Origin: Candidatus Woesearchaeota archaeon
GTDB taxonomy: Archaea; Nanobdellota; Nanobdellia; Woesearchaeales; WJKL01
NCBI GenBank assembly: GCA_014729675.1
Contig: WJJM01000016.1
Location: 1 to 41,855, forward strand
Direction: 5' to 3'
Length of the DNA stretch: 41,855 nucleotides
Below the pieces are notes generated by a model that saw only the letters and a list, made by a program, of their open reading frames with translations, did no database searches and was not told the DNA's origin. Shown in pieces: positions 8,785 through 28,452 of the stretch (its first letter is position 1; each line of letters begins with the position of its first letter). The position numbers and the translations under genes are program-made.

Positions 8785-10365
8785 ATGGAACAAGATGCTA
8801 AAAACATTTTCAAGGGAAGATCTTTCTGCGTAGCTTCTGACTTTTCTCTTGATGAATGGCTGTATATATTTGAGAAGACAGATGAACTTAAGAAAGCTAT
8901 CAAAAACAAAGATAAAGATATCTTAGATTCTTTCAGGATAGATGATATTGATTATGGGATACAGAATGCGATCCTTGAGCCGAGCACAAGGACAGACAAT
9001 TCTTTCAGGAATGCTGCTGAGTTTCACAAGGCAAAGTTTAATCTCTTTGATCCAGGAGTTTCTTCAAGAAAGAAAAAGGAAAGCTATGCAGATACATTCA
9101 ATACCTTATCTGGATATGGCAACAGCCTGTTCATAGTGAGGAGCTCTGAAGAAGGATTGTGCAGATGGCTCGAGATAAACGGGAAGAGGTATACAGATAA
9201 CAACAATATAGAGGTTCCGCCTGCTTTTATCAATGCAGGAGACGGGCAGCATGAGCACCCTACCCAGGAGCTGCTGGATGAGTTCACATTCTGGGAATCT
9301 AATTATAAAGACCAATCAAGTATGCATATTGCACTTATAGGGGACCTTCTTCATGGGAGGACAGTACATTCAAAAGCTGATGGGTTGACTGTTTTTAATA
9401 GGGTTGAGGTCGATCTTATAGCTCCTGAAGAGATCTCTATGCCTGAGAACTATATCAAAAAGATGAAAGGCAATGGATTTAAGATCAGGAAATTTGAATC
9501 TCTGGATGAGTATTTTTCACAAGGCCATATAGCAGGAAAGCAGTACTATACAAGACCTCAGCTTGAAAGGATGGGAGAGGACATAATAAAGATACAGGAC
9601 AAGCTGAGGGAAAAGATAATATTCAGGAAAGAACATCTGGCTAAGCAGCCTGAAGGAACTAAGATGTACCATCCTCTGCCAAGACACAAAGATCACCCCA
9701 CTTTGCCTGTATTTCTTGACTCTACACCCTTAAACGGATATGAGATGCAGTCAAGGAATGGTTATTTCATAAGAATAGTCCTGTTGGGAGCTATAGCAGG
9801 AAAGCTTGGAGGGGATTTTCAGGGAGAGACTGTAGAGAAGAAAGAATATCCTGATGATTTTATAGATGAAACCACTCCTAAAAGTTCAGGGATAAAAAAT
9901 TATAAAGAGGGAATAAGGCCTATAGATAACGGGATGGTCATAGACCATGTTTGCAGAGGGGATTCTGAAAAAGATATATGGGATCATCTTGCAAAAGTTA
10001 TGAAAATCATGAATCTATATGGCAGAGGCTATATAGGCGTTGATGAGTCTCAGAAAGACAAAGGTATGTACAAGGGCCTGATATCTCTTCCAGACCACGA
10101 GCATTTTGATGAGAAACAGATAAAGAAATTAGGAGCAGTTGTTCCGGGATGCACATTAAATTTTATAGAGGATGAGCACATCTCAAGAAAACTAAGATTA
10201 AGGATGCCCAGAAGGATATACGGGTTTGAAGAGCCTGACTGCAGCAATGAAAGGTGTATAACGCATGAAGAACCTGTTCCAAAAAAGTTCATAAGGGCAA
10301 AAGACGGAAAATACAGCTGCCTTTATTGCGAGCATCCTCAGACATTCAAGGAGATATGGAGATAA
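8785..10365 (+). CDS. pyrBI: aspartate carbamoyltransferase, fused catalytic (PyrB) and regulatory (PyrI) chains
   Basis: Makes N-carbamoyl-aspartate from carbamoyl phosphate and aspartate, the committed step of pyrimidine synthesis. Residues 1 to about 345 are PyrB: carbamoyl-phosphate loop PSTRTDNSF (STRT at 67-70), the Lys-containing KKKESYADT loop, IVRSSEEG, HPTQELLD, LHGRTVHS, YYTRPQLERMG and HPLPR are all present, so the active site looks complete. Residues about 370-526 are PyrI: the allosteric domain (RPIDNGMVIDHV) and a zinc site Cx4C-x20-CxxC (CSNERC...CLYC). The two are normally separate genes in archaea and enterics; a fusion is known in Thermotoga. No other pyr gene is nearby. 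It has a leaderless promoter. Confidence 0.95.
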   Translation: MEQDAKNIFKGRSFCVASDFSLDEWLYIFEKTDELKKAIKNKDKDILDSFRIDDIDYGIQNAILEPSTRTDNSFRNAAEFHKAKFNLFDPGVSSRKKKESYADTFNTLSGYGNSLFIVRSSEEGLCRWLEINGKRYTDNNNIEVPPAFINAGDGQHEHPTQELLDEFTFWESNYKDQSSMHIALIGDLLHGRTVHSKADGLTVFNRVEVDLIAPEEISMPENYIKKMKGNGFKIRKFESLDEYFSQGHIAGKQYYTRPQLERMGEDIIKIQDKLREKIIFRKEHLAKQPEGTKMYHPLPRHKDHPTLPVFLDSTPLNGYEMQSRNGYFIRIVLLGAIAGKLGGDFQGETVEKKEYPDDFIDETTPKSSGIKNYKEGIRPIDNGMVIDHVCRGDSEKDIWDHLAKVMKIMNLYGRGYIGVDESQKDKGMYKGLISLPDHEHFDEKQIKKLGAVVPGCTLNFIEDEHISRKLRLRMPRRIYGFEEPDCSNERCITHEEPVPKKFIRAKDGKYSCLYCEHPQTFKEIWR

Positions 10366-10368
10366 GGA

Positions 10369-11682
10369 TCAGTTCATATACTGAAGACCGTGGTCTTTGA
10401 CAAACTTTGCTCCGTCTTTGCTGAAGTATCTTTTTAGTTTTCTTATTGATATGTTTTCTATCTGTCTTATGTTTTCTCTGGGCCATCCTGTCTTCTCTTC
10501 TATCTCTTCCAGAGTGTACCCATTGCTTCCAAATCTCATCCTGATGAATTTTCTCTCCTTCTTGTTCAGCTCCTTGTCAAGTATCTTTTTAAATTCTCTG
10601 CTGAAATCCTCTTTCTCAACATCCTTTTGAGTGTCTTTTTCGCATTCTAATGTATCTTTTAGGTAAAACTCATCTGATATCGGAGCATCAAGATAGACAT
10701 TTTTCTTGTTCAGGCTTTCCATATACATGACATCTCTTATGCTCATATCCATACCTTCTGCTACATCATAATCATTGGCATGATAGTTGTTCTTGTCAAA
10801 GAAATCTTTCTTAAACTCTTTTATGCTCCTTAACATAGAGTCTGCAGAAGAGCTCCTTTTTTCATTAAACTTTCTTCCTATTTCCCTTAACATAATGTAC
10901 ATTGCAGAACTGTATACAAAGCTCTGGAAAGAAGCATTTCTTTTGAAGTCGTGCTTTTTTATAGCTTTTACAAGCCCGTAATTTCCTTCTGAGATCATAT
11001 CCATATCTCTGTTTAGCCTGTATTTTTTTGCTATTGCAGGAACCATACGAATTGTGCTTTTTACAAGCTTTTCTTCTTTTTCTCTGCACTTTTCATAGTG
11101 GTGTTCAAAAAGCTCTTTGTTTGTTTCAAGCTGAAGATAGTAATCTTTGAAGCGTTCAATATATCCTCTTACAGGCCTTAGTTCCATCATCAGGCTGGTT
11201 ATCTTTTCTTTGTTTTTCTGGATTTCTTCTTTCTCAAGAATTTTTTTTATCTTACTGATATTCTTTTCAGCTTTTTTTCTTGCATCTTTTTTGTCCAAAG
11301 AGAAAACATGAAACTTTGATCTTAATCTTTTTTTACTGTCAGCAGACAAAAGTATCTTTTTCAGGATATCCTTATTGCTGAAAAGCAGGGCAGCATATCC
11401 ATTATAATGGTGCTCCATCTCTTTTAGCAGTTTTTGCTGTATATCTTTGGGAACCAAAGCAGCGTGATTGCACATATCTTTATAATATGCATCTACCTCA
11501 TCATACAGCACAGAATAGTCCGGCCTTTCCAGGCATACATCAAGTGTCTTAAGTGTCTTTATAACTTTATATATCTTTTTTTCAGATACTGAGTTATCTT
11601 TTAGGAACTTGTTCAGTTCTATGTTTGATATTTTTTTCTTATCCTTAAAGCATTCTTTAAGGATATCTTCAAGCTTATCCAT
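10369..11682 (-). CDS. sigma-70 family RNA polymerase sigma factor
   Basis: 437 residues with the domain order of a primary-type bacterial sigma factor. Residues 1-55 resemble sigma 1.1. Residues 61-113 match 1.2 (DEVDAYYKDM, ALVPKDIQQKL). A helical non-conserved region (114-195) follows. Residues 196-276 match 2.1-2.4 (EEKLVKSTIRMVPAIAKKYR, ISEGNYGLVKAIKKHDF). Residues about 282-345 match 3 (YDVAEGMDMSIRDVMYM, YLDAPISDE). Residues 367-425 match 4 (LNKKERKFIRMRFG, YTLEEIEEKTGWPRENIRQI). The Trp pair that melts bacterial -10 DNA is missing (SSAMYIM at that position). Archaea normally use TBP/TFB; sigma-like genes have been reported in DPANN single-cell genomes. It has a leaderless TATA promoter and converges with pyrBI. 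Confidence 0.93.
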   Translation of the reverse strand: MDKLEDILKECFKDKKKISNIELNKFLKDNSVSEKKIYKVIKTLKTLDVCLERPDYSVLYDEVDAYYKDMCNHAALVPKDIQQKLLKEMEHHYNGYAALLFSNKDILKKILLSADSKKRLRSKFHVFSLDKKDARKKAEKNISKIKKILEKEEIQKNKEKITSLMMELRPVRGYIERFKDYYLQLETNKELFEHHYEKCREKEEKLVKSTIRMVPAIAKKYRLNRDMDMISEGNYGLVKAIKKHDFKRNASFQSFVYSSAMYIMLREIGRKFNEKRSSSADSMLRSIKEFKKDFFDKNNYHANDYDVAEGMDMSIRDVMYMESLNKKNVYLDAPISDEFYLKDTLECEKDTQKDVEKEDFSREFKKILDKELNKKERKFIRMRFGSNGYTLEEIEEKTGWPRENIRQIENISIRKLKRYFSKDGAKFVKDHGLQYMN

Positions 11683-11769: not shown

Positions 11770-12945
11770 ATGGAGATATATGAGCCAAGAGAAGATACTT
11801 TCCTGATATTAAAGCAGATAGAACATTTTGCTTCTGGAAATGTTCTTGATATGGGGACAGGTTCAGGAGTTTTGGCTATAGAGGCTGCTCAGACAGCAGA
11901 TAATGTTATAGGGGTAGATATAAACAAGGATGCTGTTGAGTTTGCGTCTGAGCAGGCAAAAGATTATCCTAATGTCCAGTTTTTCCATTCTGACCTTTTT
12001 TCTTATTTTAAGAAGAACCCTATGAAGTTTGACCTTATAATCTTTAATCCACCATATCTTCCTGAAGATAAAAAAGAGCCAAAGGAAAGCGCACTGGCTA
12101 CGACAGGAGGAAAGAAAGGACACGAAGTTCTTGAAAGATTTTTTTCTGAAGTTTCTGAATATCTTATGCCTTACGGAAGGATACTTGTCATTTTCAGCTC
12201 TTTAACAGGAAAAGATAAGACCCATGAGATATTGGAAGAGTATGCTTTTGATTACCAGAAGCTTGCTGAGAAAGAAGAGTTTATGGAGACATTGTTTGTC
12301 TATATAATCGAGAAGAGCGATCTTTTGAGAGCAGTGGAATGGAAAGGCATAAAGAATGTAAAAAAGATAGCAAAAGGCCACAGAGGATTTATCTTTATAG
12401 GGAATCTTGAAGGAAAGAAAGTTGTCGTGAAAAAGCAGCGTGATGACAAGCCTGTTACAGGAAGGATAGTAAATGAAGCAAGATGGCTGAAAGTTTTGAA
12501 CAGGAAAGGCATAGGCCCAAAGTTTTTGTTTTTAGATGTGAAGAACAATTATTTTTGCTATGAGTATGTTGAGGGAGAATTTATACCTTCATTTTTAGAG
12601 AAAGCTCCAAAAGATGAGATAAAGAAAGTTTTGAAGGATGTGTTTGAGCAGTGCTTTAAGATGGATATGATGGGCATAGACAAGGAAGAGATGCACAATC
12701 CGTATAAGCATGTATTGGTCGAGGATGGGAAAGCTGTCCTGCTGGATTTTGAAAGGGTGCATTCTACTGAGAAACCGAAGAATGTTACCCAGTTTATGCA
12801 GTATGTTGGAAATAAAAGGAATACAAAGATACTGAAAGAGAAAGGCATAAAGGTTGATATGCGTAAATGGAGAGCTGCTGCAAGAAGATACAAGAAAGAA
12901 GAGAACAAAGAGAACTTTAAGAAAATCTTAAGTCTTTTGAGTTAG
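11770..12945 (+). CDS. HemK2/Mtq2-type glutamine methyltransferase fused to a predicted Ser/Thr kinase
   Basis: Two-domain protein. Residues 1 to about 180 are a class I SAM methyltransferase of the release-factor type: EPREDTFLIL at the start, SAM loop LDMGTGSG, acidic VIGVDIN, and the substrate motif NPPY near residue 93. This family methylates the GGQ glutamine of aRF1. Residues about 190-391 match the archaeal predicted kinase family COG2112: KGHRGFIF glycine-rich-like strand, KKVVVKKQR (the ATP-binding Lys), NEARWLKVLN, a KHVLVEDGKAVLLDFERV segment with the metal-binding Asp. The canonical HxD is replaced by an HNPYKH-like loop. These are often separate genes; the kinase substrate is unknown. 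ATG 11770 fits the leaderless promoter. Confidence 0.88.
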   Translation: MEIYEPREDTFLILKQIEHFASGNVLDMGTGSGVLAIEAAQTADNVIGVDINKDAVEFASEQAKDYPNVQFFHSDLFSYFKKNPMKFDLIIFNPPYLPEDKKEPKESALATTGGKKGHEVLERFFSEVSEYLMPYGRILVIFSSLTGKDKTHEILEEYAFDYQKLAEKEEFMETLFVYIIEKSDLLRAVEWKGIKNVKKIAKGHRGFIFIGNLEGKKVVVKKQRDDKPVTGRIVNEARWLKVLNRKGIGPKFLFLDVKNNYFCYEYVEGEFIPSFLEKAPKDEIKKVLKDVFEQCFKMDMMGIDKEEMHNPYKHVLVEDGKAVLLDFERVHSTEKPKNVTQFMQYVGNKRNTKILKEKGIKVDMRKWRAAARRYKKEENKENFKKILSLLS

Positions 12946-13000
12946 GTTTTTTTGTAGTTTGACAATTAAAATTTTTCTATGGTCTAAATTTAAAATCATT
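12946..13000 (+). terminator. T-rich stretch after the MTase-kinase gene
   Basis: A seven-T run at 12947-12953 directly follows the stop codon, with further T-rich sequence after it. This is the usual archaeal termination signal, and the window also encodes the termination factor FttA. It starts the 760-bp gene-free interval. Confidence 0.4.
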
Positions 13001-13136
13001 ATCTCTAAGTCAGTATAGCTGCCCTGCAATTATTATTCAAAAATAATCTCTAGGTCAACAAATTGCCCTGCAATAATTATTCAAAAATAATAATTTAACA
13101 ATAATTATCTCTAGGTCAACAGAGTTGCCCTGCAAT
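13001..13136 (+). repeat. three copies of a 29-30 bp repeat
   Basis: Units at 13001-13030 (diverged), 13046-13074 and 13107-13136 share ATCTCTAGGTCAACA, then two to four variable bases, then TTGCCCTGCAAT. They are separated by AT-rich spacers of 15 and 32 bp that contain ATTATTCAAAAATAAT, a small hairpin. A fourth copy lies 14 kb away at 27369. The uneven short spacers and low copy number argue against CRISPR. The third unit runs directly into the foldable element that follows. Confidence 0.8.
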
Positions 13137-13424
13137 CAGGATTTTCAATCCTAATTTATAACGCTCGCTTTGCTCGCTACTATAGCCAAAGAAGCTGCCT
13201 ATCTGCAGTTAGCTCCTCCCCTTTTGGTGCAGAACTTTCTTTCTTTTTCCCACCCAAGTTTTAGTGCTCTGTGCTTCACTAAGATTGGATTTAGTGTAAG
13301 GTCGTTGAGTTCTAAGTGGGCTTAGCTGAGAAAGCAGCAGATTAGCCCGAAGCCAGAACTCAGCTTAGCTGCGAAGAGGGGCTGTGCACGAGCGCAGCGA
13401 GTGCCACAGATAGGATTGAAAATT
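13137..13424. ncRNA. candidate structured RNA or MITE-like element
   Basis: No gene is visible, but the stretch is clearly GC-richer than its surroundings and strongly foldable. The ends are inverted: ATTTTCAATCCTA (13141-13153) against TAGGATTGAAAAT (13411-13423), then CTCGCTTTGCTCG (13164-13176) against CGAGCGCAGCGAG (13389-13401). Inside are a hairpin TTAGTG/CACTAA (13261-13282) and a long stem: TGAGTTCT (13306-13313) with AGAACTCA (13355-13362), GGGCT with AGCCC, GCTG with CAGC, closed by AGAAAG. It lacks the recognisable cores of SRP RNA, RNase P RNA or tRNA. The strand is unknown. The inverted ends would also fit a miniature mobile element. Confidence 0.5.
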
Positions 13425-13530
13425 TTAATTCTGCTTTTTAGAAATATTAAAAAAACTGGCAGGCTTTCAATCATATATATCAAAGTCTGACTTAAAGATA
13501 GTATTGAGTTTAATTCTGCTTTTTAGAAAT
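13424..13530 (+). repeat. pair of 22-bp direct repeats
   Basis: TTTAATTCTGCTTTTTAGAA plus AT occurs at 13424-13445 and identically at 13509-13530. The first copy abuts the right inverted end of the structured element; the second follows an 'ATTGAG' similar to the 'ATTGAA' before the first. Each carries a five-T run. A duplication of the element's right boundary, or two terminators, are both possible. Confidence 0.75.
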
Positions 13531-13704
13531 GTTATATATGATCTAAAGATTTTAAGCTTAGAAATAAACAAGGTACAATTTAGATAGTTTTCATAAATCA
13601 AGAAAGCAGGATAATGAGATATCTTTAAATACTCTTCAACATAATACTATATAATTCTTAATTTGTTCTCTGGCTGATGTGCAGAGAGATAAGAACCAAA
13701 AGAC
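13531..13704 (+). promoter_or_regulatory. promoter and structured leader of the YkgJ-like gene
   Basis: TATA-like CTTTAAATA at 13623-13631 is 75 nt upstream of the ATG (13705), leaving a 5' leader of about 50 nt, unusual for this window. The leader contains a hairpin: TCTCTG (13667-13672) pairs with CAGAGA (13682-13687), with GTTC/GAAC extending the base (13665-13668, 13693-13696). A closer TATATAAT-like element (13648-13655) could instead start transcription inside the hairpin. Confidence 0.4.
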
Positions 13705-14067
13705 ATGGATGCTGTTGAAAAAGCCAGGGAGATTATAGGAAAGTATTGTTATGAAGAGTGCAAAGCTTCCTGCTGCAGGAGAGGGATGCTTGTGCTTGAT
13801 GTAAGCGAAGCTGAAGTGATAAGCATGGATCCTAAACCTGGCAAGGATGGAAAGGTTGTTTTTGATCTTGGAAAGCAGAAGTGCCCAAGGCTTGGAGAAG
13901 ATAAGAGATGCATTGTCTATGATAAGAGGCCAAAAGCGTGCAGGGATTTCCCGTTTCTTGTTTCTGGAAACAAAGTGATAATAGCTCCATTATGTCCGCT
14001 GGGAAAGGATCCTAAGCTTGATTTTATCATAGATATCCTAAGGAAAGGTGGATATACTATAATATAG
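13705..14067 (+). CDS. YkgJ-family cysteine-cluster protein
   Basis: A 120-residue protein of the YkgJ/UPF0153 zinc- or iron-chelating family. Cysteines run as CYEECKASCC near residues 13-22, then CPRL...RCIVYDKRPKACRDFPF (the family's most conserved block) and APLCPLG near the end. The family is thought to bind a metal ion; its biochemical role is not established. It is followed 38 nt later by ogt with its own TATA box. The hairpin-bearing leader upstream is unusual and could be a control point, perhaps metal-related, but that is inference. Confidence 0.9.
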   Translation: MDAVEKAREIIGKYCYEECKASCCRRGMLVLDVSEAEVISMDPKPGKDGKVVFDLGKQKCPRLGEDKRCIVYDKRPKACRDFPFLVSGNKVIIAPLCPLGKDPKLDFIIDILRKGGYTII

Positions 14068-27298: not shown

Positions 27299-27368
27299 TT
27301 AATGTTTCTTTTTTATTGTTTTAATATTTGAATCTTAGAACACTATTGGTTATTAATTAAAAATCATA

Positions 27369-27441
27369 ATCTCTAGGTCAACAAGTTGCCCTGCGATCAG
27401 GATTTTCAATCCTAATCTATAACGCTCACTGTGTTCGCTAA
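27369..27441 (+). repeat. fourth copy of the dispersed repeat
   Basis: About 73 bp nearly identical to 13107-13179: ATCTCTAGGTCAACA, AGTTGCCCTGCGAT, CAGGATTTTCAATCCTAAT and TATAACGCTC are shared, with one indel and a handful of substitutions. It lies 70 bp after a same-strand stop codon, a position like that of the first locus. The right inverted end seen at 13411 is not found here. The remainder of the 27299-27561 gap shows only AT-rich sequence and the map promoter. Confidence 0.8.
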
Positions 27442-27529
27442 TCTTACCATCCATGCAAAGGCATAGAATTCTAATCATATCTAAGCTGGGTTCTAATCCT
27501 GCTTCATCTAGGTTATAGCTAAAAAACAA

Positions 27530-27561: not shown

Positions 27562-28452
27562 ATGGAAGAAGAAGAGCTTGAAAAGTTAAGGAAAGCCGGG
27601 AAGATAGCTGCTGAGGCTTTGAAGTATGCAAAGTCATTGATAAAGCCTGGGGCTTCTTTGTTGGATGTTACTAAGAAGGTTGAAGAGAAAATAGTCCAGA
27701 TGGGAGGAGGTTTTGCTTTTCCTGCTCAGTTCAGCTGTAATGATATAGCTGCCCATTACTGTGCTGAAGCTGATGATGATATAATATTTGATAAACAGCT
27801 TGTCTCTGTTGATATAGGTGTTGAGGTTGATGGATTTATAGGGGACAATGCAATGACTGTAGACCTTTCCGGGGAAAATTCTGAATTGGTACAGGCTTCA
27901 AGAGATGCTTTGGAGAATGCTTTGAAGCTGATAAAGCCTGGAGCGAAACTTGGAGAGATAGGAAAAGCTATACAGGATGCGATCACTTCAAGAGGTTTTG
28001 CACCTGTAAGGAATCTTTCAGGCCATGGATTAGGAGAATATAAGATACATACAAAGCCTACAATCCCAAATTATGATAATGGAGATGAGACTGAATTAAA
28101 AGAAGGAGATGTCATAGCTATAGAGCCATTTGCTTCTGCAGGAGCTGGCGTTGTTTATGAGTCAAGCCCTGCTTCTGTGTTTGAGCTTATAGAGAAAAAG
28201 CCAGTGAGGAATATGTTTACAAGAAAGATTCTTAAGGAGATAGAGGGATATAAGGATCTGCCTTTTTGCAGGAGATGGCTTGTAGATAAGTTTGGAGAAG
28301 CGAAAGTTAATTTTGCTCTTCGCGAGCTTAAGAATATAGGTGTTATAAGAGAGTATCCTCCTTTAGTGGATCAAAGCCATGGGTTAGTTTCACAGGCTGA
28401 GAAAAGCCTTATAGTAACTGAAGATGGATGCGAAGTTTTGACTGATTATTAA
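27562..28452 (+). CDS. map: methionine aminopeptidase, type II
   Basis: Removes the initiator Met from nascent proteins. The 296-residue chain has the pita-bread fold markers: AAHYCAEADDD (substrate His), DIGVEVDGFIGDNAMT (two metal Asp), LSGHGLGEYKIH (metal His), AIEPFASAGAGVV (metal Glu) and the final SQAEKSLIVTEDG (metal Glu). The insertion after the fourth ligand (KILKEIEGYKDLPFCRRWLV) is the type II helical subdomain typical of archaea and eukaryotic MetAP2. Leaderless promoter at 27530. Its stop overlaps the convergent gene by 4 nt. Confidence 0.97.
   Translation: MEEEELEKLRKAGKIAAEALKYAKSLIKPGASLLDVTKKVEEKIVQMGGGFAFPAQFSCNDIAAHYCAEADDDIIFDKQLVSVDIGVEVDGFIGDNAMTVDLSGENSELVQASRDALENALKLIKPGAKLGEIGKAIQDAITSRGFAPVRNLSGHGLGEYKIHTKPTIPNYDNGDETELKEGDVIAIEPFASAGAGVVYESSPASVFELIEKKPVRNMFTRKILKEIEGYKDLPFCRRWLVDKFGEAKVNFALRELKNIGVIREYPPLVDQSHGLVSQAEKSLIVTEDGCEVLTDY

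Follow-up and report, generated by a model that had tools for sequence, protein, structure and literature searches.

A probable family of high-copy, non-autonomous palindromic repeats in a Woesearchaeota genome

Overview

A foldable, gene-free feature in the genome of a Candidatus Woesearchaeota archaeon (GCA_014729675.1) is best explained as one copy of a high-copy, non-autonomous, MITE/BIME-like interspersed DNA element, an inverted mosaic of small palindromic units, and we give this reading a probability of about 0.72. It lies on contig WJJM01000016.1 within the 41,855 nt analysed as a whole, referred to here as the window. Under the best reading it represents an archaeal family of interspersed palindromic repeats that is new and lineage-specific. 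The case for selfish DNA is built on approximately 50 dispersed intergenic copies, an inverted architecture, compensatory changes in the hairpins, mosaic modules, truncated copies and absence from the relatives searched; it is weakened in that no transposase with matching ends was found and in that hairpin arrays blur the ends of the element. The element is most likely mainly selfish, any effects on neighbouring genes being secondary.

Composition, foldability and coding content

The initial annotation described positions 13137-13424 as a GC-rich, highly foldable element with inverted ends and no gene, and each part of this description was borne out. GC content is 0.41-0.51 inside the feature and 0.24-0.30 in the AT-rich spacer to its left and right, a contrast with spacer more than with the genome because nearby genes reach 0.35-0.45. 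The minimum free energy is -105 kcal/mol (z of -3.0 on the plus strand and -4.2 on the minus strand, each strand compared separately with dinucleotide shuffles), and none of 100 shuffles was equally stable. In a repeat search the ends (13134-13153 and 13411-13430) were complementary at 17 of 20 positions (85%) across 257 nt. No open reading frame of at least 80 aa occurs between 12946 and 13704, the interval that separates a methyltransferase-domain gene (11770-12945, plus strand) from a CxxCxxCC-domain gene (13705-14067, plus strand), and the suggested Rfam search, run over the entire window, returned no family at gathering score. The element therefore has the structural features of a MITE, namely no coding capacity and terminal inverted repeats of 15-30 bp in halves that align in inverted orientation. 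The proposed extent fared less well: the feature is real, but hairpin arrays flank it on both sides and it forms the centre of a larger composite (Table 1).

Architecture of the element

The anatomy was established by reading approximately 45 copies. The composite ends are approximate because the outer arrays fade out. On the left, copies mostly carry one to five units of the hairpin A-RG-T-CAR...YTG-C-CY-T with a 2-4-nt loop, followed by TTTCAATCCTA(A)TYTATAACGCTCGC and the variable core, which is closed by GTGCACGA...GAGTGCCATAGATAGGATTGAAA ahead of the right array. The right array uses the left unit turned the other way round, and there both the arm and the loop are longer. Terminal inverted repeats bound the core, and a small hairpin with tandem G.A mismatches forms the end of each.

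Table 1. Positions of the element, its parts and a second copy in the window
Feature	Position	Strand	Evidence
Whole composite element	12964..13570	+	Similarity to other copies (blastn, 71 matches); ends approximate
Left array hairpin unit 1	13002..13030	- (better-folding outward strand)	R1, 44.2 bits; match reported on +
Left array hairpin unit 2	13047..13074	-	R1, 43.9 bits
Left array hairpin unit 3	13108..13136	-	R1, 47.1 bits
Left terminal inverted repeat of core, GATTTTCAATCCTAATTTATAACGCTCGC	13140..13168	+	Repeat pair I1; inverted alignment of halves
Left mini-hairpin, tandem GA on minus, TAGC-GA-GC-AAA-GC-GA-GCGTTA	13158..13183	-	GCGAGCAAAGCGAGC at 13163-13177 (-)
Variable core, long form	13157..13406	+	15-copy alignment
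Right mini-hairpin, tandem GA on plus, GCAC-GA-GC-GCA-GC-GA-GTGC	13386..13404	+	R2, 69.4 bits at 13376-13429; covariation
Right terminal inverted repeat of core	13397..13424	+	Repeat search; inverted alignment of halves
Right array hairpin unit, TGGCAGGCTTT...AAAGTCTGACTTA	13457..13494	+	Halves compared
Direct repeat TTTAATTCTGCTTTTTAGAAAT, copy 1, right array	13424..13447	+	Repeat pair D1
Direct repeat TTTAATTCTGCTTTTTAGAAAT, copy 2, right array	13509..13532	+	Repeat pair D1
Second, truncated copy (one left unit and left mini-hairpin)	27357..27480	+	blastn, copy reading, R1

Read from core to flank on the outward strand, both halves consist of the same parts in the same order: a GA/GA mini-hairpin (GC-GA-GC-AAA-GC-GA-GC on the minus strand at the left, GCAC-GA-stem-GA-GTGC on the plus strand at the right), then (T)AGGATTGAAA, then the array unit GCARGGCAR...YTGACYTAGAGAT. 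The arrays point outward on both sides. The array hairpin folds better on this strand (-4.4 vs -2.4 kcal/mol). Variants of the left mini-hairpin include GC-GA-AC-GCA-GT-GA-GC; the tetranucleotide GTAG precedes it in some copies and not in others, and is absent at the right mini-hairpin. Aligned as inverted repeats, the two halves of the window copy gave a local score of 34.5 (shuffles 22.6 +/- 3.5, maximum 37 in 500; direct orientation 17), a match that within this copy alone is only moderately beyond chance. The hairpin unit shared by both halves recurs across copies.

Copies within the genome

A blastn search of 12946-13704 against the own genome (1.44 Mb, 72 contigs) yielded 71 matches. Covariance models built from hairpins seen among the copies identified 73 sites for the array hairpin (R1) and 39 for the right mini-hairpin (R2), and merging the three sets of matches left 50 loci, none of which overlaps an open reading frame of at least 85 aa. 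Furthermore, GCGAGCAAAGCGAGC occurs at 29 exact sites. Many copies are truncated, including the second one in the window, which has a peptidase M24 gene (at 27562) downstream of it. Contigs C5, C6, C15, C18, C32, C53, C64 and C65 start or stop inside copies, as expected of repeats, which break assemblies. With some 50 scattered, gene-free copies the feature looks like a selfish repeat and not like a single RNA gene, and a foldable intergenic stretch in genomes of this kind should have its copy number checked before it is called an RNA. Tandem copies of TCAATGTCAAGAATTAGAGATTCTTGGATCTCAAAAAATTATTCTAATTTTTT were also seen directly upstream of one element copy (L069, ~1320-1500).

The core exists in two forms, a long one that is highly alike between copies and a short one. 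The segment after the core and the right mini-hairpin each have several alleles, which occur in differing combinations among copies; such mixing is the pattern expected from recombination between repeats.

The 16S and 23S rRNA genes of the genome are archaeal, and the window also carries a gene with an FttA KH domain. On the same contig as this FttA-like gene lies a sigma-70 family protein of 437 aa (window 10372-11682, minus strand; TIGR02937 67.4 bits against a cutoff of 42.9, RpoD_Cterm 1.2e-26, solved RpoS 8.5e-19). The family scored above cut-off in 27 of 60 relatives' genomes, among which single bins may be contaminated; if true, the presence of sigma factors of bacterial type in an order of archaea would be a separate finding. 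The catalytic and regulatory chains of aspartate carbamoyltransferase (PyrB-PyrI) are fused in one 526-aa frame at window 8785-10365 (plus strand).

Conservation of the hairpins

Over the 27 distinct array hairpins the share of cells that pair is 92%, compared with 84% in shuffles, and 26 cells changed on both sides (shuffle mean 11.5, with 0 of 500 reaching 26), counts that are not independent events because the copies are paralogues in one genome. When the scan was run without anchoring at the bases that vary (36 distinct matches, a few off target), the main covarying pair had P = 0.0002. Similarly, 94% of cells pair in 19 right mini-hairpins (86.5% in comparison), with five pairs changed on both sides. 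Like those for the array hairpins, these counts come from paralogues, among which gene conversion could spread alleles. The T.C mismatch, G.A on the outward strand, is present in 27 of 27 array hairpins, a set gathered by a search pattern that itself contained these bases. The GA/GA arrangement is kept in nearly all mini-hairpins, as judged from the alignment of right-hand hairpins, a looser regex count being left out.

Searches in other genomes

Outside its own genome the family was not encountered. There were no matches in a DNA search of 98 other genomes of the order, with R1 and R2 in 39 relatives (three of them from other genera of the same family), with R1 in 239 other genomes of the order, or in plasmid and phage collections. 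Neither the genomes of 84,980 species nor viral contigs contained the hairpin pattern; these scans demand exact matches, and the genome set may omit the own genome. The upstream protein likewise had no match among the 84,980 genomes. As the relatives searched contain no second genome of the genus, the family is known from one genome.

The motif GCGAGCNNAGCGAGC gave 44 matches in 18 relatives versus 22 for a reversed control pattern. The cases read proved to be structures of a different kind, several of them in tRNA genes or next to one, and are therefore not counted as evidence of homologues. As a separate observation, two genomes from another family of the order (G091 and G009) contain GCGAGC-GNA-GCGAGC followed by GGG(A/C)TTGAA...TTTTAATTCAA beside tRNA-like sequence (L092 ~2400-2660; L093 ~2180-2245, minus; L094 ~190-240, minus; L090 3299-3480; L091 3230-3420). 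This stretch adjoins the T-arm-like TTCGAACC, and to judge by the letters it looks like a common intron or insertion in several tRNA genes.

Candidate mobilisers and proposed spread

The genome contains four matches to Y1 (IS200-type) transposases, two partial and two apparently intact, and one match to DDE_Tnp_1; the TnpB zinc ribbon and the casposon Cas1 had no matches. The IS200-like TnpA genes at L057 2361-3257 and L058 1329-1805 are flanked by hairpins CATCCTTTAGGATG and CCACCCTTTAGGGTGG, and the L057 frame continues into unrelated downstream sequence, reaching 298 aa. Descent from the DDE element was rejected, as its ends (GGTTTGTCCCAAA/TTTGGGACAAACC) are unrelated to ours. Thus, among the transposase families searched, no autonomous transposon with ends related to the element was found, a result that covers the IS200-like and DDE copies that were read in an incomplete assembly. 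The mobiliser may be absent from the assembly or act without shared ends.

The element comprises an outward hairpin array, a tandem-G.A mini-hairpin, the variable core, a second mini-hairpin and another outward hairpin array. In the proposed model, a recombinase would recognise the folded, single outward strand; spread would occur when that strand is exposed, for instance during replication, and a trans-acting enzyme would process the exposed strand. Arrays would then grow or shrink through recombination between repeats. A more specific version, which we offer tentatively and consider possible but not probable, is an archaeal counterpart of REPINs in which the folded outward strand, with conserved G.A mismatches in every hairpin, would be the substrate of a single-strand-specific transposase and the tandem arrays would be accessory binding sites.

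Alternative explanations

The initial annotation left the choice between a new ncRNA and a MITE-like element. A structural ncRNA, in which all 285 nt would fold and act as one RNA encoded by a multicopy gene family, would account for a predicted fold that is stable on both strands and for the covariation of the small hairpins, but the long-range pairs barely covary: in the consensus fold of 15 long cores, 2 of 45 pairs on the plus strand and 1 of 45 on the minus strand changed on both sides, so the global fold is not backed by covariation. The core differs from copy to copy in the length and sequence of its middle, the truncated copies are many, Rfam is silent, and the two halves carry their G.A mismatches on opposite strands, a pattern that inverted-repeat DNA should show and a single transcript should not. 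We consider such an RNA very unlikely. It counts against the DNA-element reading, though, that the hairpins which covary might function as RNA too. The MITE-like half of the proposal thus stands, with its dispersed, gene-free copies and inverted ends, while the structural ncRNA half does not, and the test put forward with it gave a mixed answer, since the local hairpins do carry compensatory changes, yet the copies are distributed like those of a repeat element. Host roles in cis have been proposed for some BIMEs and BOX elements, and a host-maintained bidirectional terminator, insulator or mRNA stabiliser, repeated by chance, would fit the intergenic position of every copy, the hairpins kept by compensatory change and an inverted symmetry that would supply hairpins to transcripts from either side. 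In 30 of 43 cases a gene start lies opposite the right side of the element (P = 0.014); the difference between its left and right sides is not significant (P = 0.085). Among 38 copies with both neighbours called (simple longest-ORF calls), the flanking genes lie on the strand of the element on both sides in 16, on the opposite strand on both sides in 9, and are divergent in 11 and convergent in 2, although convergent pairs are where terminators should be common. Such mixed orientation rules against a sense-oriented UTR element. Together with the widespread truncation and the absence of matches in three other genera of the same family, these data make a host-maintained element improbable; a consistent UTR or terminator role for the family is not supported, and single copies may have one.

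Derivation from the IS200-type elements of the genome, as a PATE, is suggested by the presence of Y1 transposases, two apparently intact, and by the near-terminal hairpins of the element. The hairpins beside the transposases, however, are unrelated in sequence and without G.A geometry, neither R1 nor R2 matches near the IS200-type transposase genes, and the element has inverted ends, which PATEs do not (PMC3119063). IS200 parentage was accordingly rejected, and we consider a PATE origin very unlikely. Results remain most consistent with an interspersed, MITE/BIME-like DNA repeat.

Comparison with known repeat systems

REP/BIME systems are known from bacteria, where BIMEs and REPINs are REP palindromes in alternating or inverted arrangement, linked to RAYT transposases. 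The present element shares much with them, being made of small imperfect palindromes with kept mismatches, repeated in inverted orientation, intergenic, mosaic, high in copy number and able to fold single-stranded, as described for BIME/REPIN sequences (PMC3116915, PMC2817692). Unlike them, it spans ~300-700 bp, its variable core lies between hairpin arrays, and neither GTAG nor CGTC was seen as a conserved tag next to the palindrome. Its host is an archaeon whose Y1 matches resemble IS200 and have end hairpins of their own; no RAYT was identified among them. In a survey of complete genomes, archaea showed a single TnpA-Y1 subclass, 1.1, to which typical IS200 transposases belong (PMC6006769). 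A family of approximately 50 mosaic hairpin arrays, seen in a single archaeal genome and preserving the geometry of its mismatches as the stem bases change, would provide a test for REPIN-like single-stranded mobile DNA in archaea and for its mover.

MITEs are short, non-coding sequences with terminal inverted repeats and many intergenic copies (PMC3733652), and the element resembles them in all of these; it differs in that no parent transposon with matching ends was found and in the variable number of its outer arrays. BOX elements of Streptococcus pneumoniae are modular, with variable tandem modules and predicted stem-loops, and are apparently dormant, without a clear mobiliser (PMC3049150). 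Modular repeats, a variable number of tandem modules and predicted stem-loops are found here as well, but the variable modules of BOX lie between end modules whereas the variable arrays of the element lie outside its core; the comparison is by description, and Rfam-type and phage/plasmid searches showed no sequence relation.

The small repeats described so far from archaea are mainly the MITEs, PATEs and SMRs of halophiles (PMC3119063). The PATEs of Haloquadratum are transposase-free mobile repeats with near-terminal palindromes, no inverted ends and an IS605-type relation (PMC3119063). The element is likewise archaeal, transposase-free and equipped with near-terminal hairpins, but these differ from those of the genome's IS200 elements, and its ends are inverted. 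Haloquadratum SMRs have inverted ends and an enigmatic mobiliser, and SMR-A, of ~110 bp, inserts into other mobile elements (PMC3119063). Although the element differs from SMR-A in length, it has in common with SMRs both its inverted ends and the lack of a clear mobiliser.
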